Part shown: positions 13,155-32,373 of the stretch, piece by piece
Position numbering within the stretch: the first letter of the stretch is position 1
Layout of the letters: every line of letters starts with the position of its first letter
Source: Deltaproteobacteria bacterium
GTDB taxonomy: Bacteria > Desulfobacterota > GWC2-55-46
Direction of reading: 5' to 3'
NCBI GenBank assembly: GCA_016182655.1
Contig: JACPGB010000011.1
Location: forward strand, 1 to 32,562
Length of the DNA stretch: 32,562 nucleotides
Program-made: the position numbers and the translations under genes
Notes under the pieces: generated by a model
Told to the model about the DNA's origin: nothing
The model's input: the letters and a program-made list of their open reading frames with translations, nothing else
The model's database searches: none

Positions 13155-13340
13155 TCACGGACCATGGCCCTCCCCTCCGAGCGTAAAATAAAACGTCGAG
13201 CCTTCGTTGGGCCTCGACTCGGCCCAGACCCTGCCGTTGTGGCGCTGGATGATCCTGCGGACGGTCGCGATCCCCACCCCGGCGCCTGGTAACCCACGAT
13301 TGAAAGTCGCATGGAACGGCTCAACTATCGGCTCACGTCA
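13155..13340 (-). pseudogene. Fragment of a histidine kinase C-terminus
   Basis: The minus-strand frame reads [18 protein letters not shown] and [19 protein letters not shown] before TGA at 13155-13157. That is the G2 box and last strands of a HATPase domain. The DNA from about 13171 to 13253 is nearly identical to the end of the large kinase gene (17342-17424). A stop lies just upstream of EPIVEPFH, so there is no intact gene. It is the leftover of a duplicated kinase beside the response-regulator operon. Confidence 0.85.
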
Positions 13341-13368: not shown

Positions 13369-14757
13369 TCACACCCCGCTTATCTCCACCCTGTTCCTGC
13401 CTTTCTGCTTGGCCTGGTAGAGGGCGGCGTCGGCTACGTTGGTCACGGCTTCCATGGTCTCCATGCTTTTTTTGTAAGAGGCCACGCCGAGGCTTATGGT
13501 GACCCCCGCCTCTGCCTCCACGGTCTTTCTTATCCTCTCTGCCACGACTCCGGCCATCGCGGAATCAGTATCGAGGAGGATGACGAAGAACTCTTCCCCC
13601 CCGTATCTGAAGATGTAATCCGCCTTTCTCGCCGCCTTTGAGATCACGCCGGCGACCCTTGCCAGCGCCTTGTCGCCTTCGATGTGCCCGTGTGTGTCGT
13701 TATATCTCTTGAAATTGTCGATATCCGCCATTATTACCGAAAACATTCTATCGTTTCTTTTGGCCAACTCGATGCATTTATCGAATTGGATGTGAAGGAA
13801 CCTCCTGTTGGCAAGGCCCGTGAGCGGGTCATGGAGCGAAGAATTCCTTGTCTCCTCGTACAGCTTCGCGTTGTTTACCGCGATGCCTATCTGGCTTCCT
13901 ATCGCCGTAAGGAGCTTGATCTGGTCCTCATTTATCTCGGTCTCCGGCTTGACGTAGAAGTTCATGAGGCCCACGACCTTGTCGGCGGTCTTGAGGGGTA
14001 CGACGACATGCCCGTGCGTTGCGCCATCCTTTCGACACACGGCATGCCTCTGGTCTTCCGCGGAATTCATTGAAATGAGGACCTCTCCTTTTGTCAGCGA
14101 CATGCCGCAAAGACATCCGTCCGATTCGACCTCGGCGCAGGGGTCCAGTTCCGGCACGGAAAGACCGGCTGAGGCTGCAAGCCGCATCTTTCCGCCTTCA
14201 GCGAGAAAGAGGGCCGCCCTTATCTCGAACGGAAATATCTCCGTCTCGACCATTGCGCGGAGCACGCCGGGCAGGAACTCGTTCATATCGAGCGACCTGC
14301 TGAGGGCGTTCGACACGCTGAAGAGGGCCTTCAACTCGGCGTTCATCTTTTGGAGCTCCCTGCCGTGCGCCGCGATCTTTTCTTCCGCCGTCTGCTTTTC
14401 TATCGCGCGCCTGATCTGGAGGAGGAGCTGGTCGATATCGTACGGCTTTATCATGTAGGAGAAAGCGCCCTTGTTGGTGGCCGAAACCGCGGAATCGAGG
14501 GTTGCCTGCCCCGTCAGTATGATGACCTCCGTGTATGGTCGAGCGGTCTTTATCCGCTCAAGGACCGCGAGCCCCGGTATGTCCGGAAGCCCGAGGTCGA
14601 TGAGGGCCACGTTGAAGCGGCGGCGTTCCATGAGGTCAGACCCCTCGCCGCCGGTCTCCGCAACGGAGATATCATACCCCTTGACCCTGAGGATGTCGGA
14701 AAGGGTCTTTCTTAAGCCCGGGTCGTCGTCTATGATAAGGATCCGAGGCGCGTCCAT
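13369..14757 (-). CDS. Response regulator with REC-GAF-GGDEF domains (diguanylate cyclase)
   Basis: 462 aa, cytoplasmic. The receiver domain (1-120) has IDDD, phospho-acceptor D54 (ALIDLGLPD) and conserved K104. A coiled linker leads to a GAF domain (about 145-300, with several Cys) and a GGDEF domain (about 305-460) whose signature RYGGEEF (385-390) is the active form. An RKAD motif five residues before it (377-380) matches the product-inhibition I-site. It should make cyclic di-GMP when phosphorylated. It starts 3 bp after the tandem-receiver gene ends, so it is the third gene of the kinase operon. The short gap to a kinase remnant downstream marks an old rearrangement. Confidence 0.93.
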   Translation of the reverse strand: MDAPRILIIDDDPGLRKTLSDILRVKGYDISVAETGGEGSDLMERRRFNVALIDLGLPDIPGLAVLERIKTARPYTEVIILTGQATLDSAVSATNKGAFSYMIKPYDIDQLLLQIRRAIEKQTAEEKIAAHGRELQKMNAELKALFSVSNALSRSLDMNEFLPGVLRAMVETEIFPFEIRAALFLAEGGKMRLAASAGLSVPELDPCAEVESDGCLCGMSLTKGEVLISMNSAEDQRHAVCRKDGATHGHVVVPLKTADKVVGLMNFYVKPETEINEDQIKLLTAIGSQIGIAVNNAKLYEETRNSSLHDPLTGLANRRFLHIQFDKCIELAKRNDRMFSVIMADIDNFKRYNDTHGHIEGDKALARVAGVISKAARKADYIFRYGGEEFFVILLDTDSAMAGVVAERIRKTVEAEAGVTISLGVASYKKSMETMEAVTNVADAALYQAKQKGRNRVEISGV

Positions 14758-14760
14758 GCT

Positions 14761-15546
14761 TCAACCTCCCTGCTTTTCTCCAGGCTGGAACGGCTCGCCG
14801 AGGACGGCACGGAGCTTCCCGCGGCTGATCTCCCCGATGGTGCCCAAAAGCTTTTCTATGTCCATCGGCTTGTAGAAACAGGCATAGGCGCCTATCTGAA
14901 GGCCCTGTTCGATGGACGCCCCCATGCCTTCCTTATAGCCGGTGATGAGGACCACAGGCTTCGTCGGGTATCTCCGCCGGATCTTCTTCATGACGTCCAG
15001 CCCGTCCACGCTGCCCAGCCTCAAGTCCAGAAGGACGGTCAACTTGTAGCTCGTATCCATGCGTTCCAGCACCTTGTCCGGGTCGGACTCCGTCTCCACG
15101 CGGTAACCCCTCGCCTCAAGGATGTCCTTCAGGGTCAGGCTGAAGTTCAGATCGTCGTCCACCACAAGTACGCTCTCCTCCTTCCGGAGGAGAGAGAAGA
15201 AGGAGAGGACCTGCTGAAGGTCGACCGGCTTGGTGAGGACCGCATACGCCCCCTGCCGCTTCGCCTCCTCCGCCTGCTCATCGGTCGCGTATGCGCTCAT
15301 CATCACCACCGGGGTGTCAGGCGCGAGCTTTTTTACCGCCTTCACGGCCTCGATGCCGCTTAGCCCGGGCATCTTGACGTCCATCAGCACGCAGTCCGGC
15401 CTTTCTTCCCTCACCTTCTCCACGGCTTCCTCGCCGCTGAAGGCCCCTATTGCAAGGTATCCCTTCACAGTCAGGATATCGCAGACGGTCTTGACCATCC
15501 TCCTGTCGTCGTCCACCACAAGGACTTTTATTTTTTCTTTCGTCAT
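14761..15546 (-). CDS. Tandem receiver (REC-REC) response regulator
   Basis: 261 aa, two CheY-like receivers and no output domain. REC1 (about 5-120) has VVDDD, D56 in VLMDVKMPG and K106. REC2 (about 125-245) has VVDDD, D174 in VLLDLRLG and K226. Both keep the phosphorylation residues. Its ATG overlaps the kinase stop by 4 bp (15543-15546), and the cyclase gene follows after 3 bp. A double receiver without output usually passes phosphate on or acts as a sink, so it may tune signalling from the kinase to the cyclase (inference). Confidence 0.92.
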   Translation of the reverse strand: MTKEKIKVLVVDDDRRMVKTVCDILTVKGYLAIGAFSGEEAVEKVREERPDCVLMDVKMPGLSGIEAVKAVKKLAPDTPVVMMSAYATDEQAEEAKRQGAYAVLTKPVDLQQVLSFFSLLRKEESVLVVDDDLNFSLTLKDILEARGYRVETESDPDKVLERMDTSYKLTVLLDLRLGSVDGLDVMKKIRRRYPTKPVVLITGYKEGMGASIEQGLQIGAYACFYKPMDIEKLLGTIGEISRGKLRAVLGEPFQPGEKQGG

Positions 15547-16847
15547 AGTCTCCTCTCAACGGGCAGTATCGCCGTAAAGGTCGTTCCGGTCCCCGGCTCG
15601 CTTTCAACCTCGATCTTTCCTCCGCTCGCCTCCACGAGGTTTTTACAGATGACAAGCCCGAGCCCTATGCCGCGCGGCTTGGTGGTAAAAAGAGGCTGGA
15701 AGAGCCTCCTCATATTCTCGCGGGAGATCCCTTCTCCGGTGTCCGCAACACCTATCCTCACCGCCCCCGCGCTCGCGTCTTCCGCCCCGCTGACCGTGAT
15801 ACTCCCGCCCTTCGGCATTGCCTGGACGGCGTTGGTGATAAGGTTGACGATCACCTGTCCCATCTGCATGGGATCGGCCTTTATCCTCGGAAGGGTCTCG
15901 GGGACGTCGATGGAGACTGCGATATTATGCGGGACGGCGCACGCGCCGAGACTCTGCTCCACCAGGCCGCGAACGGCTACCGGCTGCAATTGCGGGGTCT
16001 TTGTCCTGGCAAAATCAAGGAGGTCGGTGATGATCCTCTGCGAGTTCTCTATCTCCTTCTTGATTATGTCAAGGTATTCTTTCGTGGTTTCGTCCGCCCC
16101 CGTCAGGACCGTTTTCAAATAATAGACCGCGTTGCTCATCACGCCGAGAGGGTTCCTTATCTCGTGCCCTACGCTCCCGGCGAGCTGTCCGATCACGGCC
16201 AGCTTTTCCTTCCGCACCAGCTCGTCATGGGCGTCCTGGAGTTGTCTTGTCCTCTCCTCCACTTTGAGCTCCAGTTCAGAGTTCAGGCGCCGCACCTCCT
16301 CCTCGGCTTCCCGGCGTTCAGAGATCTCGGTGCGCAGGTCCCTGTTCACGGCCTCCCACTGCGCGGGGCCAGGCAGCGCCAGGGCCTTGGGGATAAGCAT
16401 CCAGAGGACGACTGTCGTTATGCCCGACGAGACGGCTGTGACGGCCTTGACTATCCCCGAGGCCAGATAGGCCGGGTCCCATAGCGTCCACACGCTCATG
16501 AAATGCGTGGCTCCGCAGGCCATGATGAATATGCCGAAGAGCACGAACATCCAGCGGAACTGCAGATCGGTCCGTTTCCGGATGAAGACCAGAAGAGCAA
16601 ACGGGATCGAATAGTAGGAAATGGCAGTCACCGAATCTGACACGACATGCGTCCACATCAGGAGAGATTGCCATCCCAGGCATATCCCATGCGCGTGGGG
16701 CAGCAGGTAGTCGACGGGGACGCCCTCGTGCGCGTACGCGGGCCCTGTAAACGCGAGGAGCTGCGCCAGGAGTGCACCCCCTGCGGCCCTTAGCGGAACT
16801 CGGAACAGCTCCGTTTCCGGTCGTTGCGGATATTTCTTTATTTTCAT
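15543..16847 (-). CDS. Histidine kinase with ethylene-receptor-type (ETR1-like) membrane domain
   Basis: 434 aa from the ATG at 16845-16847, which has AGGAGG 10 nt upstream; an earlier in-frame ATG (16937) would add a charged 30-residue leader and looks wrong. A signal-like helix ends in YAHEG. Then come three membrane helices with D71, Y78, I81, P82, C111 and H115. The spacing is identical to plant ETR1 D25, Y32, I35, P36, C65 and H69, where Cys and His hold the Cu(I) that binds ethylene (ACGATHF here). A short coiled coil leads to HisKA (GSVGHEIRNPLG, H228) and HATPase with NLITNAVQ, DTGEGIS and GIGLGLVICK. There is no GAF domain, unlike ETR1. First gene of a three-gene operon ending in a diguanylate cyclase. 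Confidence 0.92.
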   Translation of the reverse strand: MKIKKYPQRPETELFRVPLRAAGGALLAQLLAFTGPAYAHEGVPVDYLLPHAHGICLGWQSLLMWTHVVSDSVTAISYYSIPFALLVFIRKRTDLQFRWMFVLFGIFIMACGATHFMSVWTLWDPAYLASGIVKAVTAVSSGITTVVLWMLIPKALALPGPAQWEAVNRDLRTEISERREAEEEVRRLNSELELKVEERTRQLQDAHDELVRKEKLAVIGQLAGSVGHEIRNPLGVMSNAVYYLKTVLTGADETTKEYLDIIKKEIENSQRIITDLLDFARTKTPQLQPVAVRGLVEQSLGACAVPHNIAVSIDVPETLPRIKADPMQMGQVIVNLITNAVQAMPKGGSITVSGAEDASAGAVRIGVADTGEGISRENMRRLFQPLFTTKPRGIGLGLVICKNLVEASGGKIEVESEPGTGTTFTAILPVERRL

Positions 16848-17337: not shown

Positions 17338-19977
17338 TTATGCCCCTCCGAGCGTAAAGTAAAATGTCGAGCCTTCGTTGGGCCTCGACTCGGCCCAGAC
17401 CCTGCCGTTGTGGCGCTGGATGATGCGCCGGACCGTGGCAAGGCCGACGCCGGTGCCGGGGAACTCGTCGGCGGAGTGCAGCCTGTGGAACGGCTCGAAT
17501 ATCTCCTCGGCGGATTCCATACTGAACCCGACCCCGTTGTCGTGTACGAAAAATACCGCGCCCTTTTTTTCCGAGCCGAAGGCTATCTCGGCGATCTTCC
17601 TCTTTGACGAGTACTTCCAGGCGTTGCCGATGAGGTTCTCAAGGACCATCCTTAAGAGCCTTTCGTCCCCGTAAGCGAGGAGGCTGTCCTCGACCGTCGC
17701 CCGGACTACCCTTTCGGGGGCCGCCTTCTCAAGGTCGATTATGATCGACCGGGCCATGGCGCTTAAGTCTACCTCCTCCAGATTGAGCTCCGCGCGGACG
17801 ACATGGTAGAGGTTAAGGAGGTCGTCTATGAGCTGGCCCATGCGGCTGACCGCCGCCCTTATGCGCTCGAGCTGGTCCCTCCCGCCGGGGTCGAGCCTGT
17901 CTTTCTGCTTCCGGAGAAGCAGCTGGCTGAACCCGTCGATTAGCCGGAGCGGCGAGCGCAGATCGTGCGCGACGGAATACGTGAAGGTCTCTATCTCCCT
18001 GTTCGCCGAGGCGAGCTCGTCGGCGGTCTTCTTTAATTCCGAGGTCCTCTCCTCGACCCTTTTCTCGAGCTCCACGGTGAGCTTCCTAAGCTCTTCCTCC
18101 GCCCTCTTTCTCTCGGTTATGTCCTGGACCGTGCCCGTCATGCTTAAGGGGTTGCCTTCCGGATCAAATAAGACTTCCCCCTGCTCGTGGACCATCTTTT
18201 CAACTCCGTTCGGAAGGACTATCCTATGGTCTATGGAGTAGCTTTTTTTCCTGTATACGGCCTCGTCGACCGATCTTTCCACGAACCCCCTGTCTTCCGG
18301 ATGGACATAGCCTAAAAACGCCTCGTATGTGGCCCTGAAGTCCCTTGGCCCCACCCCGAATATCCTGTATATCTCGTCCGACCAGCGCAGTTCGTTTTTC
18401 ACTATGTCCCAGTGCCAGTTGCCCAGGCGGGCTATCCTCTGGGCCTCGGAGAGCATCCGTTCGCTCCTTCTGAGCGTCTCCTCGGTTTTCTTAAGCTGGC
18501 TAATATCGGTGGAGACGCCGCAGACCGCGTATTTTTTTCCCTGCGTGTCCTTGAGCGCGAACTTTACGGAGAGGACGACGATCTCCGTCCCGTTTAGGCG
18601 CACATCCTCCTCGAACTCCAGCGGCCTGTCGGATGCGAGCGCCGTCATGTCGTTTTCGTGGAAGACCCTCGCCATATCCTCGGGGAACAGTTCGAAGACG
18701 GTCTTTCCGTACACCTCGTTGCGCCCCATCTTGAGCGCGCTCTTAAAGGCGCTGTTCACGAATATATGTCTTCCCTCAAGGTCCTTTATATAAATGATAT
18801 TCGCCGTGCTGTCGAGTATGGACCGGAGCCTCTCCTCGCTTTCGGCGAGTTCGTCGGTCCTCTCCATTATTTTCGAGGCCATGGCGTTGAAGGACTCCGC
18901 GAGAGAACCGATCTCGTCCCGGCTCCTTGCCGTCACCCTTGTTTCGTAATTGCCTTTTGCGAGCTCCCCGGCCGCGCCCGCGATGGCTGTCACCTGCCCG
19001 ACTATGCGCCTTACGAAGTAGACCACAAGGATGGTCATGAACCCGGTCACCACAAGGACAAGGGCTACGGCGTAGCGCTCATTCCATATTACCGGCTCAA
19101 AGACCTCCCTCTCGTCCACCTCTACAACGAGCGTCCATCCGAAGGAAGGAATGCACATGGAGGCCCCGACGACCTCCACGCCCCTGTAATCGGCGTAGAC
19201 CCCCGTGAATTCCGTTCCCTTCTCCACGCACGCCCTCACGGGAGGCGTGTCCACTTTCTGCCTCAGGACCGCCTCTTTGATGAAATGGGATTCCGTAAGC
19301 ATGAGCTTGTCCCTGTTGACGAGGTAGATCTCGAATGTCTTCCATCTCTTAAAAGGCGGGTTCCATGTGAGCGCCCCCAGCCTTTTTATATACTCCCCGC
19401 TGAAAAACTCTCCAAATTTGGAGAGCTCCGTAAACCCTGCTATGACGCCGATGACCCTGCCGTGGCCGCGTCTGCTGTAGACAGGGGCTGATACGACGAC
19501 CTCGGGGACGTTGCCGGAAGTGACCTCCGTAACAGAGATTCCCTGAAGCCCGTTCTTGAAATACTCTTCATTGGACAAGTCCCTGCCTTCGTACCCCGGG
19601 CGGGTCGAGGCGATGATGCGCCCGTCCATTGCGGCTATGACGTTCAAGCGGTACATTGAGCGAAGAAGCGGGAGCTTGTACCTGGTCAGATATTCGTCAA
19701 GGATCCTGGCGGCTCTTTTTTTGTCCGTTCCAGCCTCTTCTATCGTGCGCACTATGAAGTCGTCGCTCGAGAAGTCCAGCATCCTGCTCTTGTTCATCTC
19801 CAGGTACATAAAAATGTACGCCTCGCGCTCATCGGTTATCTGTTGCAACTGATCGATGAGCAGGTCTTTTAATTCGATGCGGTTCTTGTGAAATACGATA
19901 TATATGGTGAGAAGGATCGGGAGCAGGATGGCGAGGAATACGCCGAGGACTTTTTTCGTGAGAGATAAACGGGGCAT
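17338..19977 (-). CDS. dCache-HAMP-PAS-PAS sensor histidine kinase
   Basis: 879 aa. Order: TM helix (about 10-30), large periplasmic dCache-type domain (about 35-300), second TM (302-322), HAMP (323-375), PAS 1 (about 380-495), PAS 2 of the PAS_3 type (about 505-622), coiled coil, HisKA with FTYSVAHDLRSPLRL (H671), then HATPase with N785, DNGVGF and GTGVGLATVRR. The H box resembles those of bacteriophytochrome-type kinases. The ligand is unknown. Start: ATG at 19975-19977 with GGAG 7 nt upstream. No response regulator is adjacent on its own transcript; the three-gene operon downstream lies 490 bp away. Its 3' end is the source or sister of the fragment at 13155-13340. Confidence 0.94.
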   Translation of the reverse strand: MPRLSLTKKVLGVFLAILLPILLTIYIVFHKNRIELKDLLIDQLQQITDEREAYIFMYLEMNKSRMLDFSSDDFIVRTIEEAGTDKKRAARILDEYLTRYKLPLLRSMYRLNVIAAMDGRIIASTRPGYEGRDLSNEEYFKNGLQGISVTEVTSGNVPEVVVSAPVYSRRGHGRVIGVIAGFTELSKFGEFFSGEYIKRLGALTWNPPFKRWKTFEIYLVNRDKLMLTESHFIKEAVLRQKVDTPPVRACVEKGTEFTGVYADYRGVEVVGASMCIPSFGWTLVVEVDEREVFEPVIWNERYAVALVLVVTGFMTILVVYFVRRIVGQVTAIAGAAGELAKGNYETRVTARSRDEIGSLAESFNAMASKIMERTDELAESEERLRSILDSTANIIYIKDLEGRHIFVNSAFKSALKMGRNEVYGKTVFELFPEDMARVFHENDMTALASDRPLEFEEDVRLNGTEIVVLSVKFALKDTQGKKYAVCGVSTDISQLKKTEETLRRSERMLSEAQRIARLGNWHWDIVKNELRWSDEIYRIFGVGPRDFRATYEAFLGYVHPEDRGFVERSVDEAVYRKKSYSIDHRIVLPNGVEKMVHEQGEVLFDPEGNPLSMTGTVQDITERKRAEEELRKLTVELEKRVEERTSELKKTADELASANREIETFTYSVAHDLRSPLRLIDGFSQLLLRKQKDRLDPGGRDQLERIRAAVSRMGQLIDDLLNLYHVVRAELNLEEVDLSAMARSIIIDLEKAAPERVVRATVEDSLLAYGDERLLRMVLENLIGNAWKYSSKRKIAEIAFGSEKKGAVFFVHDNGVGFSMESAEEIFEPFHRLHSADEFPGTGVGLATVRRIIQRHNGRVWAESRPNEGSTFYFTLGGA

Positions 19978-21309: not shown

Positions 21310-21675
21310 ATGGACGAAACGCTCCTCATAACCAAGGCCCTCTCCGACAGGACGAGGCTCCGGATAATAGCGGCGCTCTCGGGGGGCGAGCTCTGCGTAT
21401 GCCAGGTCGTGGAGCTCCTGAAGCTCGCGCCTTCCACGGTATCGAAGCATCTCCATATCCTGAGCGGGTCCGGCCTTATCCGTTCCCGGAAAGACACCCG
21501 CTGGGTCTACTACAGGCTCTCCGGCAAGGGCTCTTCGAAAAAGGCGCAAGACGCGCTTAAGTGGGCGCGGGCGGCGCTATCAGGCGATAAATCCATCATC
21601 GAGGACTCGAAGGCCCTTAAAAAGATCACCCGCGTATCAAAGGAGGCCCTTTGCAGGGCTCAGATAAAAAGATAA
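21310..21675 (+). CDS. arsR: ArsR/SmtB-family arsenic-responsive repressor
   Basis: 121-aa winged-helix repressor. MDETLLITKALSDRTRLRII is the family N-terminus; the recognition helix is in APSTVSKHLHILSGSGLI. The ELCVCQV segment carries the CxC arsenite-binding pair of classical ArsR, in helix 3. The C-terminal third is longer than minimal ArsR proteins. It is the first gene of arsR-arsC-acr3; arsC starts inside its last codons (25-bp overlap), so the genes are co-translated. Arsenite binding should release it from its own promoter. Confidence 0.95.
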   Translation: MDETLLITKALSDRTRLRIIAALSGGELCVCQVVELLKLAPSTVSKHLHILSGSGLIRSRKDTRWVYYRLSGKGSSKKAQDALKWARAALSGDKSIIEDSKALKKITRVSKEALCRAQIKR

Positions 21676-22247
21676 GGGCGCTATTCCTTTGCACCGGCAA
21701 CTCCTGCAGGAGCCAGATGGCTGAAGCATGGGCGCAAAGGCTTCTTTCAGAGGCCGTCCTGCCGTATTCAGCGGGAACAGCCCCCAAGGGGCTCGACCCG
21801 CTGGCGATCGTTGCTATGGCAGAGGCGGGGGTCGACATCTCCGGCTATCGCTCAAAGTCCGTGGACGAGTTAAGCGCGGTCTCTTTCGACCTCGTCATCA
21901 CGGTCTGTTCGGCGGCGGACGAGAACTGCCCGGTCTTCCCTGGCGCGAAAAGAAAGATCCACGCCCCGTTCGACGACCCCCCGCGCCTTGCAGAGGGCGC
22001 AAAGACGCGCGAGGAGGCGCTTGCGCACTACAGGAGGGTCCGGGACGAGATAAGGGAGTTCGTCTTTCCTCGACAGGTTCCTGACCCTCTGGATAGTGCT
22101 TGCGATGTTCGCGGGTGTCCTCATCGGCTGGGGTGCGCCGGGTGTGGCTACAGGCATAAACTCCCTGAGCGCCGGGACCACGAACATACCGATAGCCGTC
22201 GGGCTCATACTCATGATGTACCCGCCGCTCGCTCGCGTGCGATATGA
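21651..22247 (+). CDS. arsC: ArsC, thioredoxin-type arsenate reductase (C-terminus runs out of frame into acr3)
   Basis: Low-molecular-weight phosphatase-fold arsenate reductase; it turns arsenate into arsenite for export. The P-loop [14 protein letters not shown] (catalytic Cys) is followed by [15 protein letters not shown] with the two redox Cys and by FDDPPRL with the general acid Asp. Start: TTG at 21651 directly after AAAGGAGG. The conserved protein ends near REFVF (22068). Past this point the frame continues to TAG (22245-22247) as unrelated residues because it overlaps the acr3 coding frame. So the last ~60 residues are either non-native or skipped by a frameshift into acr3. Confidence 0.9.
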
Positions 22248-23088
22248 GGAGCTCGGCAGGGTATTCAGGGATTCAAGGATCCTCGCCGTCTCCCTCGTCC
22301 AGAACTGGGCCATAGGGCCCATTCTCATGTTCCTTCTCGCCATTGTGTTCCTGAAAGGCTACCCCGGCTACATGACGGGCCTCATACTCGTCGGTATCGC
22401 GCGTTGTATCGCCATGGTCATCGTCTGGAACGGGCTCGCTTGCGGGGACGCCGAGTACGCCGCCGGGCTCGTCGCCTTCAACAGCGTCTTCCAGGTCCTC
22501 TTCTACAGCCTCTATGCGTGGTTCTTCGTGACGATACTGCCGCCGGTATTCGGGGCCGAGTCCGCGGCCGTGAGCGTCACCGTCATCGATATAGCCGAAA
22601 GCGTCCTCGTCTATTTGGGAATACCGTTCTTCGGCGGGATGCTCACGAGATTCTTACTCATCAGGGCGCGCGGGGCAGAATGGTATGAAAAGAGGTTCGT
22701 GCCGTCGATCTCACCAATCACCCTCGCCTCGCTCCTCTTTACAATCGCCGTCATGTTCAGCCTGAAGGGCGGGCAGATATTGATGCTACCCCTTGACGTC
22801 GCGCGCGTAGCGGCCCCGCTCCTTATCTATTTCATCGTCATGTTCTTCGTAAGCTTCTGGATGGCGAAAAGGGCCGGAGCGGACTATGAAAAGACGGCGT
22901 CAGTCGCCTTTACCGCGGCCTCAAACAACTTCGAGCTCGCCATAGCCGTGGCCATCGCCACATTCGGCATAGGCTCTGCCGAGGCCTTCGCGGCCGTCAT
23001 CGGCCCGCTCGTTGAGGTCCCGGTCCTCATGGCGCTTGTAAACGCCGCGCTCCGTCTGCGCAGGTCTTTCAGTCCTGCCGCTTACTGA
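22096..23088 (+). CDS. acr3: ACR3-family arsenite efflux permease, N-terminus continuous with arsC
   Basis: Arsenite/proton antiporter with ten helices. [23 protein letters not shown] (the conserved Cys of ACR3) and [18 protein letters not shown] are diagnostic. Only a weak internal GTG (22096) is available as a start. The normal family N-terminus ([15 protein letters not shown]) is encoded just upstream in the same frame (open from 22054 after a TAA), with no ATG, GTG or TTG before it. It overlaps the end of arsC in the neighbouring frame: a +1 shift after the TTT codon at 22064-22066 would join VF of ArsC to LDRFLTLW of ACR3. See findings. Confidence 0.92.
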
Positions 23089-29062: not shown

Positions 29063-29899
29063 ATGCCACACGCCATCTGGAAAGGCTCTATAAGCTTCGG
29101 ACTCGTCAACATCCCGGTCGGCCTATATACCGCCGAGAACAGGGAGGAGAAGATCTCCTTCAACCTGCTCGACAGGCGCGACCTCTCGCCGATCGGGAAC
29201 AAGAGGTTCAACAAGACGACCGGCGAGGAAGTGGCCTCCACAGACCTCGTAAAGGGCTACGAGTACGAGGAGGGGCGCTATGTCGTATTAAGCGACGAGG
29301 ACTTCAAGAACGCCAACCCAGAGGCGACCCAGACCGTCGAGATAATCGACTTCGTAGACTCAAAGCGCATACACCCGGTCTATTTCGAGAAGCCCTATTA
29401 CCTTGCGCCGACGAAAAAGGCGGTCAAAGGCTATGCGCTCCTTCTCGAGACATTAAAGAGGACCGGAAAGGCCGGGGTCGCGCGCGTCGTAATACACACG
29501 AAGGAATACATAGGCGTAGTCATGCCCTTTGGCAAGGTCCTGGTGCTCGACCTTCTCCGGTATGCCGAAGAGATCAGGGGAGCCGAAGACCTGAACCTCC
29601 CCTCCGAGGGCCTTGAGGCCGCCGGAGTCACCGAAAAAGAGCTCGACATGGCCGAAAAGCTCGTCGCAGGCATGGCCTCTGACTGGGACCCGTCGAAGTA
29701 CCGCGACACATACAGGGAAGAGCTCGAAGGCTACATAAAAAGGAAGATAGCGGCCGGAGAGACCGAGGCCGCAAAGGCCGCGCCACCGGCGCTCCCGGCG
29801 CGAGGCGAGGTAATAGACCTCATGGCTCTTTTGAAGAAGAGCGTCGAGGAGGCCCACTCCGCGCGTGAGCCTGCCCGGAAGAAAGCGGCAAAGGGCTGA
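29063..29899 (+). CDS. ku: Ku, NHEJ DNA end-binding protein
   Basis: 278-aa homodimeric ring that threads broken DNA ends and recruits LigD. It starts MPHAIWKGSISFGLVNIPVGLY, the family hallmark. The core contains FNLLDRRDLSPIGNKR, GYEYEEGRYVVLSDEDF and KPYYLAPTKKAVKGYALL. The lysine-rich end (EPARKKAAKG) is the usual short C-terminal tail. Start ATG 29063 with AAGG nearby. Its TGA overlaps the ligD ATG, so the two are co-translated. Confidence 0.96.
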   Translation: MPHAIWKGSISFGLVNIPVGLYTAENREEKISFNLLDRRDLSPIGNKRFNKTTGEEVASTDLVKGYEYEEGRYVVLSDEDFKNANPEATQTVEIIDFVDSKRIHPVYFEKPYYLAPTKKAVKGYALLLETLKRTGKAGVARVVIHTKEYIGVVMPFGKVLVLDLLRYAEEIRGAEDLNLPSEGLEAAGVTEKELDMAEKLVAGMASDWDPSKYRDTYREELEGYIKRKIAAGETEAAKAAPPALPARGEVIDLMALLKKSVEEAHSAREPARKKAAKG

Positions 29900-32373
29900 T
29901 GAATGAAGGCGGCGACATCGGAGGCTACCGCAAAAGACGCGACTTCACAAAAACGCCCGAGCCAAAGGGCGGCGAAGGGAAAACGGCAGGCGGTATCTTC
30001 GTCGTCCAGAAGCACTCTGCAAGGGCCCTCCACTACGATCTGCGCCTCGAGCTCGACGGCGCGCTCAAAAGCTGGGCTATCCCAAAGGGCCCGTCGCTCG
30101 ACCCTGCGGACAAACGCCTCTCTATCCATGTAGAAGACCACCCTATCGAATACGCCGTCTTCGAAGGCGTGATCCCGAAAGGCGAATACGGCGCGGGAAA
30201 GGTCATCCTATGGGACAGGGGGTTCTGGATACCTTTCAACGACCCGCATGAGGGATACCGCAAAGGGGAGCTCAAGTTCATCCTCGCGGGCAGGAAACTC
30301 AAGGGCGCGTGGGCGCTCGTCCGCCTTAAAAAACAGGAGGACGAAAAAGACGAATGGATGCTCATCAAGGAGACGGACGAGGAGGCGCGAAGAGACTTTG
30401 ATGTAACGGCAGACCTTCCGTTGAGCGTCTTAAGCGGACTCCCAATCGATGAAATCGCAGAGGGCCGGGGAGTCTGGGCCTCTGAAGAGACCCTGCCAGT
30501 CGTCTCCGAAGCGATGGACGAGATAAAAGCCGTAAAAGCGGAAATGCCTGCAAGGCTCTTTCCGGAGCTCGCGTATCTTGCGGACTCGCCTCCTTCGAAA
30601 GACGGCTGGCTCTTCGAGATAAAGTACGACGGCTACAGGTTGCTTTCCCGCATAACTGACGGGGAGGTCCGGCTCTTCACGCGGAACGGCAACGACTGGA
30701 CCGGGAAGTTCCCCTCTATCGTCCGGTCCCTCTCAAGGCTCAGAGTCAAATCCGCGTGGCTCGACGGCGAGGCGGTCTATCTAAAACCCGACGGCACGAC
30801 CGGTTTCAGCGAACTGCAGAACTCCTTGAGCCTCTCTCATGACGAAGACCTCTCTTACATCATCTTCGATATAGCCTACTACAACGGGTACGACCTTAAG
30901 GGCGCGCCGCTTTCTGAGCGCAAATCGCTCCTTAAGGCCCTCCTGCGCGCGCACGCGAAGGACCTTTTGAATGTACGGTTCGGCGACCACTTCGAGGGTG
31001 ACGGGCTTGCCTTTTTCGAGCGCGCCTGCGCGAGCTCGCTCGAGGGGGTCGTCGCAAAGGAGCGCTCTTCTCCATACAGGCAGGGCAGGAGTCGTGAGTG
31101 GCTTAAGGTAAAGTGCAGACTGAGACAGGAGTTCGTCATCGGCGGCTATACGCTCTCCGGTGGCAAAAGGTCTTTCGGCGCGCTCCTCGTCGGCGCGCAC
31201 GATGATGAAGGCGCCTTCACATACTGCGGCCGCGTAGGCACGGGGTTTGACGAGGCGACTCTTAAGTCCCTGTTCGAAGGGATACAAGGGCTCGGTGCCG
31301 TTGCGCCGCCCTTCGCAAACCCTCCGGCAGGCATTGAGGCTCGCGATGTGATCTGGGTGACGCCTGAGCTCGTCGTCGAGGTCGAGTTCAGCGAATGGAC
31401 GCGCGACAGGATACTCCGGCAGGCCTCGTTCCGGGGGCTCCGTCCCGACAAGGACTGGAAGGAGGTGACGATAGAGCTGGCTGAAAAGACTGAGCCCCCG
31501 CGGATACGCCTTACGAACCCGGAGAAAATTTTCTACCCCGAGGACGGCATTACCAAAAAACGGCTCGTCGAATATTACGAGCTCGCGGGGGAAAAAATGC
31601 TACGCCACATCGAAGGCCGCCCGCTTACGCTCGTGCGCTGTCCCGAGGGCTACGACAGGGAATGTTTTTTTCAGAAACATGCCGAGATGTCCATTCCGGC
31701 GGGCGTGGAGCGGGTCCCGATAATCGAAGACGGAGAGGCCAGGGATTACATGGCCGTGAGTTCTCTCGAAGGCCTCCTCTGGCTCGCGCAGATGGGCACG
31801 CTCGAGGTGCACGCATGGGGGTCGAGGACGCCAAAGGTCGAATTCCCTGACAGGATAACTCTCGACATGGACCCGGACGCATCCGTTCCCTGGGAGCGGC
31901 TCGTCGAGGCGGCATTTCTTCTGAGGGCGGTCCTCGAAGAGCTCGGGCTAAAGTCCTTTCCGAAGCTCACCGGAGGCAAGGGCGTCCATGTGGTCGTGCC
32001 GATAGAGCCCCTCATAGATTGGAATAAGGCGAAGGCGTTTGCGAAGGCGCTCGCGGAATTCGTCGCAATGGGTTTGCCGGAGAGGTTCACCTCAGTCATG
32101 ACAAGGGCGCGGAGGGTGGACAGGATCTACATCGATTACATGAGGAACCACCGTGGCTCAACGGCGATAGAGCCATATTCGACGAGGGCGAAGAAGGGCG
32201 CGCCCGTTGCCGCGCCGGTCTCATGGGCCGAGCTCGGGGACTTAAGGCCGGACTCGTTCACGGTATTGAACATGGCGGAACGGATAAAAGGGCTTAAGGA
32301 AGACCCGTGGGAAGGGTACTTCGAGATCAGGCAGACGATAACGGGGGAGATCAGGAAGAAGTTGGGAAAATGA
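29899..32373 (+). CDS. ligD: LigD, multifunctional NHEJ ligase/polymerase
   Basis: 824 aa, domain order PE-LIG-POL as in Pseudomonas LigD. The 3'-phosphoesterase part (about 10-165) has FVVQKHSARALHYDLRLEL (H45, D47, R49) and HVEDHP. The ATP-dependent ligase part (about 220-515) has EIKYDGYR with adenylated K242, LDGEAV, EGVVAK and WLKVK. The primase-like polymerase part (about 540-820) has LDMDPD metal-binding Asps and GGKGVHVVVP. All three active sites look intact. ATG at 29899 overlaps the Ku stop. The protein repairs double-strand breaks with Ku in the cytoplasm. Confidence 0.96.
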   Translation: MNEGGDIGGYRKRRDFTKTPEPKGGEGKTAGGIFVVQKHSARALHYDLRLELDGALKSWAIPKGPSLDPADKRLSIHVEDHPIEYAVFEGVIPKGEYGAGKVILWDRGFWIPFNDPHEGYRKGELKFILAGRKLKGAWALVRLKKQEDEKDEWMLIKETDEEARRDFDVTADLPLSVLSGLPIDEIAEGRGVWASEETLPVVSEAMDEIKAVKAEMPARLFPELAYLADSPPSKDGWLFEIKYDGYRLLSRITDGEVRLFTRNGNDWTGKFPSIVRSLSRLRVKSAWLDGEAVYLKPDGTTGFSELQNSLSLSHDEDLSYIIFDIAYYNGYDLKGAPLSERKSLLKALLRAHAKDLLNVRFGDHFEGDGLAFFERACASSLEGVVAKERSSPYRQGRSREWLKVKCRLRQEFVIGGYTLSGGKRSFGALLVGAHDDEGAFTYCGRVGTGFDEATLKSLFEGIQGLGAVAPPFANPPAGIEARDVIWVTPELVVEVEFSEWTRDRILRQASFRGLRPDKDWKEVTIELAEKTEPPRIRLTNPEKIFYPEDGITKKRLVEYYELAGEKMLRHIEGRPLTLVRCPEGYDRECFFQKHAEMSIPAGVERVPIIEDGEARDYMAVSSLEGLLWLAQMGTLEVHAWGSRTPKVEFPDRITLDMDPDASVPWERLVEAAFLLRAVLEELGLKSFPKLTGGKGVHVVVPIEPLIDWNKAKAFAKALAEFVAMGLPERFTSVMTRARRVDRIYIDYMRNHRGSTAIEPYSTRAKKGAPVAAPVSWAELGDLRPDSFTVLNMAERIKGLKEDPWEGYFEIRQTITGEIRKKLGK

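Follow-up and report, generated by a model that had tools for sequence, protein, structure and literature searches.

A predicted ethylene-receptor-type histidine kinase in an operon with a diguanylate cyclase of the Desulfobacterota, and the recurrence of this linkage in Bacteria

A compact three-gene locus

The window analysed in this work is a stretch of 32,562 nucleotides (contig JACPGB010000011.1 of assembly GCA_016182655.1, from a Deltaproteobacteria bacterium of the Desulfobacterota), and it carries three tightly packed genes on its minus strand. The first of them (15543-16847) starts with the ATG at position 16847, with an AGGAGG sequence 8 nt upstream, and encodes a protein of 434 aa that comprises a signal-peptide-like N-terminus, an ethylene-binding domain (EBD) with three transmembrane (TM) helices, a coiled coil, and the HisKA and HATPase_c domains of a histidine kinase. 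The EBD is encoded at 16374-16661. The dimerization/phosphoacceptor domain identified by Pfam (16002-16190) contains H228 within the GHEIRNP motif, and the catalytic domain, also identified by Pfam (15555-15875), retains intact N, G1 and G2 boxes. No PAS, GAF or HAMP domain was detected by Pfam between the EBD and the kinase core, and few EBD kinases that we have seen are as compact as this protein.

The stop codon of the kinase gene overlaps the start codon of the second gene (14761-15546, 261 aa) in the sequence ATGA. The product of the latter consists of two receiver (REC) domains, both of which keep the acidic pocket as well as the Asp, Thr/Ser and Lys residues, and it lacks an output domain. 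The third gene (13369-14757, 462 aa) begins only 3 bp further and encodes a REC-GAF-GGDEF protein, in which the receiver retains its phosphorylation residues, including the phosphoacceptor Asp, while the cyclase domain possesses both the GGEEF active-site motif and an RxxD I-site (RKAD-YIFRY-GGEEF), with RKAD located five residues ahead of GGEEF, as is standard for I-sites. A REC domain is thus joined to GG[DE]EF, which identifies this protein, by its sequence, as a response-regulator diguanylate cyclase with cyclic di-GMP (c-di-GMP) as the predicted output. The initial annotation of this DNA had described the kinase gene at these coordinates, its overlap with a tandem-receiver gene, the 3-bp gap, and a cyclase with an active GGEEF motif and an I-site; the coordinates and the two motifs were confirmed, and the overlap and the gap proved to be exact.

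The upstream neighbor, a dCache-HAMP-PAS-PAS histidine kinase gene (17338-19977, minus strand), is separated from the EBD kinase gene by 490 bp and is probably a unit of its own. Because of this distance, and because the gene downstream of the cyclase lies on the opposite strand, we regard the operon as comprising three genes. A scan for sigma-70 promoters yielded only sites at the chance level. The operon is flanked by two direct repeats of 122 nt, both on the minus strand, of which the downstream copy (13172-13293) is a remnant of the 3' end of an otherwise lost histidine kinase gene, and the upstream copy (17343-17464) lies within the 3' end of the upstream kinase gene. The two copies are 88% identical, and about 98% identical over the last ~84 bp. 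This arrangement suggests an insertion or recombination event at the 3' end of a kinase gene, in agreement with the patchy distribution of EBDs described below. Elsewhere in the window, a gene for a low-molecular-weight phosphatase-like protein (with the arsenate-reductase type of fold) adjoins an ACR3 arsenite efflux gene (21651-23088, plus strand), and adjacent genes for Ku and a multidomain LigD (29063-32373, plus strand) form a bacterial non-homologous end-joining pair. No photosynthesis genes were found in the annotated parts of the window.

The ethylene-binding domain and its structural model

The ETR1_N family of Pfam (PF25487) covers residues 63-158 of the kinase (E=9.7e-38), and the score of 128.8 bits, against a curated cut-off of 27, excludes a chance match. 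In the alignment, D71, Y78, I81, P82, I108, C111 and H115 correspond to D25, Y32, I35, P36, I62, C65 and H69 of ETR1, i.e. all seven residues required in ETR1 for ethylene binding are kept, and the domain bears the signature DYIPICH. Six of these residues had been recognized at the ETR1 spacing in the initial annotation, which considered the site complete; the seventh, I108, was not listed there and is likewise present. The AzoEtr1 record (L041) reads the same signature. A lysine of TM3 occupies the position of K91 of ETR1, and a recent review describes a salt bridge between the conserved aspartate and a conserved lysine.

The signature was compared across ETR1 and more than 40 bacterial EBDs (45 EBDs scored), and DYIPICH was found to be exact in 36 of the 45 domains aligned. 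Two EBD kinases (L106:6745-8367 and L107:7914-9551) exhibit the signature DFTAVCR instead, with His69 replaced by Arg, Tyr32 by Phe and Pro36 by Ala, and their EBD folds have probably lost the usual mode of ethylene binding. The bacterial domains share a further motif, HGxCxxW (H53-W59 of the window kinase, encoded at 16671-16691 on the minus strand; alignment columns H11, G12, C14 and W17), directly N-terminal of TM1 at the outer edge of the membrane. Its HGxC part occurs in 45 of 45 bacterial EBDs but is missing from ETR1 of Arabidopsis, and it could possibly provide a second Cu(I) ligand, an entry point for copper, or a thiol at the dimer interface.

AlphaFold2, applied to a 36-row alignment from which the sequences of plasmid records were left out, predicts the EBD as three long helices (fragment residues 19-49, 56-81 and 85-115; mean pLDDT 90.9), which are also hydrophobic. 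Judged by its signal-peptide-like character and by the cytoplasmic location of the kinase, the N-terminus of the protein would lie outside. No EBD of known structure was matched, either by sequence or by fold. The geometry of the copper site was judged from the helix assignment and a helical wheel: TM1 and TM2 are both modeled as helices, and the required residues gather on one face of TM2, whereas on TM1 their clustering did not go beyond chance. In the full-length model, for which the pTM is only 0.48, a single helix (residues 161-247) runs from the coiled coil of the membrane domain into the phosphoacceptor (DHp) helix. Taken by its domain composition, site residues, helices and kinase boxes, the protein is an ETR1-type EBD histidine kinase, with ethylene as the predicted ligand.

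Recurrence of the linkage between EBDs and c-di-GMP enzymes

A search of whole genomes detected EBD genes in 4 of the 48 genomes of the order, five genes in total and all within the family of the window; none was found in the four other genomes of the genus. A plain protein search of the genome contigs returned mostly unrelated kinases. All five genes are tied to c-di-GMP, two of them in EBD-HK/REC-REC/REC-GGDEF operons and three as single proteins with the architecture EBD-PAS-PAS-GGDEF-EAL (L015:7953-10403, L016:7807-10269 and L017:9361-11811), in which the second PAS domain was identified by Pfam and the first was read from the spacing. The operon in genome G119 (L018) has the same gene order as that of the window, with overlapping genes and a cyclase of the type REC-PAS-PAS-GAF-GAF-GGDEF. 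The genomes concerned hold 9-20 GGDEF genes, which corresponds to a 2-3% chance of finding one within 1 kb; as the three fusions share a common origin, the five cases of five amount to about two independent facts. The fusions, which seem to be undescribed, would link the ethylene site and the c-di-GMP enzymes with no need for phosphotransfer.

The EBD tree is unresolved with all long-branch rows included; after their removal the five EBDs of the family form one clade (support 78/84), and in the largest tree the EBD of the window is unplaced. The latter sits on a long branch (0.66-0.89). The EBD of L018 nests among those of the fusion proteins (96-97/86-88), pointing to a putative exchange of domains between the kinase and the cyclase forms.

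The REC-REC and cyclase pair also occurs without an EBD, namely in genomes G119 (L037) and G407 (L038), where the preceding kinases combine another type of multi-helix membrane sensor with a PAS domain, and a more distant form (L039) is found behind a dCache kinase. The kinase core, REC-REC protein and cyclase of the window are 67, 69 and 54% identical to those of the EBD-less L037, and 56, 62 and 45% identical to those of the EBD-bearing L018, which argues that the output module is older or wider than its present input. The EBD is therefore one of several sensors carried by this module, and it looks like a swapped-in input; a single gain of the EBD with later replacement and two gains on the module fit the data equally well.

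In the Pseudomonadota, EBDs scored above the cut-off in 28 of the 398 genomes sampled. Together with the known receptor of a heterotroph (see below), this dates the initial annotation's view of EBDs as established in plants and cyanobacteria, which can no longer be taken as a sign of novelty. A GGDEF gene lies within 1.5 kb of 6 of the 30 Pseudomonadota EBD genes, compared to 1.3 expected from the density of GGDEF genes (P about 0.001 under random placement, a model that ignores the clustering of signaling genes and relatedness). Five of these six cases pointed to one order, in which 296 genomes were searched and 15 EBD loci were read, one of them below the family cut-off. Fourteen of the 15 adjoin a gene for a GGDEF response regulator: five have the arrangement EBD-HK/REC/REC-GGDEF, four EBD-HK/REC/REC-GGDEF-EAL, and four an EBD-HK-REC gene divergent from REC-GGDEF, while in one an EBD gene is followed by HK-REC and REC-PAS-GGDEF-EAL. 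Eleven EBDs of these loci form one clade (88/99), which, as judged from the tree, represents a linkage long kept in one lineage; since the linked loci are largely of this one clade, they are not independent.

On the whole EBD tree, the linkage to c-di-GMP requires five changes in the best tree and at least two if well-supported branches are considered. Among the loci fetched, 18 of 47 EBD genes are located within 1.5 kb of a GGDEF domain gene or fused to it, the figure for other kinases being 1 of 15 (p=0.025, with a small control). These further linkages in the relatives and in the Pseudomonadota strengthen the wiring of the EBD to c-di-GMP that the initial annotation had predicted. Outside these lineages a GGDEF gene is missing from the 1.5 kb around most EBD kinases, which have no more than a separate or a fused receiver, so that c-di-GMP appears to be a frequent rather than a universal output. 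At one locus (L126:7128-7817) the EBD forms a separate frame of 230 aa ahead of a PAS-PAS-HK-REC gene, and represents either a stand-alone subunit or a frameshifted receptor gene. No EBD was found in phage records.

Proposed mechanism and its alternatives

Ethylene receptors have already been known both from phototrophic and from heterotrophic Bacteria; what is new here is the recurrence of the wiring to c-di-GMP. In the heterotroph Azospirillum brasilense, AzoEtr1 has been proven to be an ethylene receptor; ethylene lowers biofilm formation and c-di-GMP there, removal of the receptor has the same effect as ethylene, and according to the authors it is unknown how the receptor brings about the responses, including the fall of c-di-GMP (PMC11819568). 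Like the kinase of the window, AzoEtr1 belongs to a non-phototroph and is followed by an overlapping receiver gene, and the two EBDs are 57% identical. On the other hand, AzoEtr1 contains a PAS domain, its partner AzoRR is a single receiver devoid of output, and no cyclase gene was found in the 5 kb of flanking sequence read to either side. SynEtr1/UirS (slr1212) of Synechocystis transfers phosphate to the response regulator slr1213, as predicted for the kinase of the window, but it is also a light receptor by virtue of its GAF domain, and its output is the transcription of a small RNA rather than a cyclase (PMC11819568, PMC5812497). Plant ETR1 shares with the window kinase the three-helix EBD, the identical required residues and the TM3 lysine; however, plants signal mainly via the Ser/Thr kinase CTR1, there is no GGDEF output, and ETR1 lacks HGxC. 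Response-regulator cyclases of the PleD/WspR type possess REC and GGDEF domains with an intact Asp, GGEEF and I-site, as does the cyclase of the window, which differs in the GAF domain between REC and GGDEF and in a partner kinase that carries an EBD. A further analogy is provided by PcrK-PcrR of Xanthomonas campestris, where a sensor kinase of the plant-hormone type also controls c-di-GMP turnover via a response regulator, but with a CHASE domain, cytokinin as the ligand and a phosphodiesterase as the output (PMC7700396). Bacterial EBD proteins are known to bear varied output domains (PMC7700396). We found no description of EBD kinase/GGDEF operons or EBD-GGDEF fusions in the openly readable literature.

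We propose that the locus encodes an ethylene-type signaling operon of three genes with a c-di-GMP output, a reading to which we assign a probability of roughly 0.6; the domains, site residues, operon layout, catalytic motifs and the recurrence of the EBD/GGDEF pairing are the part of it that is observed, while the ligand, copper, phosphotransfer partners, polarity and phenotype are inferred. The membrane EBD would hold Cu(I) via C111 and H115 and bind ethylene or a close ligand of Cu(I); the resulting change in TM3 would be passed by the long coiled-coil helix to the DHp helix of the kinase, and, by analogy to ETR1, SynEtr1 and AzoEtr1, it would lower autophosphorylation. Ethylene inhibits the kinase activity of AtETR1, and the evidence for SynEtr1 is indirect. 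The kinase would phosphorylate the receiver of the GGDEF protein and thereby raise c-di-GMP, and the outputless REC-REC protein may compete for the phosphoryl groups as a sink or buffer. Thus, in the presence of ethylene the kinase would be less active, the cyclase receiver would lose its phosphate, c-di-GMP would fall, and the motile state would be favored.

It is also conceivable, albeit unlikely, that the Cu(I) site senses something else, such as copper itself, the redox state, CO, acetylene or some other small alkene, the output being unchanged. The HGxC motif at the membrane edge of all the bacterial EBDs, and not of ETR1, could indeed mean a second metal or thiol site, and copper ATPases are present, but these are nearly universal and hence uninformative; against this speaks the retention of all residues that ETR1 requires specifically to bind ethylene, even of those that are not regarded as ligands of copper, and the fact that the nearest tested relative, AzoEtr1, binds ethylene. 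A rather improbable variant is that the kinase signals mainly via REC-REC or cross-talk, and that the cyclase is governed mostly by its own GAF domain or by another kinase. The sole partner of AzoEtr1 is an outputless response regulator, and most EBD kinases sampled have only a receiver as a partner or fused; however, several loci that differ in their sensors contain the kinase core, the REC-REC protein and the cyclase as a set, and a REC-GGDEF protein follows the REC gene in nine of the Pseudomonadota loci. Far less credible still is a sensor recently swapped in or decaying, without a real ligand function: the patchy distribution, the kinase-derived repeats on both sides of the operon and the long EBD branch would be consistent with it, but none of the three reading frames is interrupted, and no known functional residue has been lost.

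If the proposed ethylene-type signaling operon is correct, the recurrence of the pairing suggests that such receptors may have direct control over whether cells swim or stick. We would give even odds to the broader proposal that bacterial ethylene receptors have repeatedly been wired directly to c-di-GMP as their output, in more than one assembly (EBD-HK/REC/REC-GGDEF operons and single-chain EBD-GGDEF-EAL proteins), and that a gas known as a plant hormone thereby sets the motile/sessile switch in at least two phyla, some members of which have no known link to plants. The physical coupling of EBD and GGDEF domains offers short pathways and suggests c-di-GMP as a common route from ethylene receptors, and the single-chain EBD-PAS-PAS-GGDEF-EAL proteins could serve as simple ethylene sensors. 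In waterlogged anoxic soils ethylene builds up through the action of microbial methylthio-alkane reductase, and therefore the use of ethylene by Bacteria need not involve plants (PMC12552129). EBD kinases with the complete DYIPICH signature extend to the Bacillota, with one encoded in Ammoniphilus (L111, genome G432).
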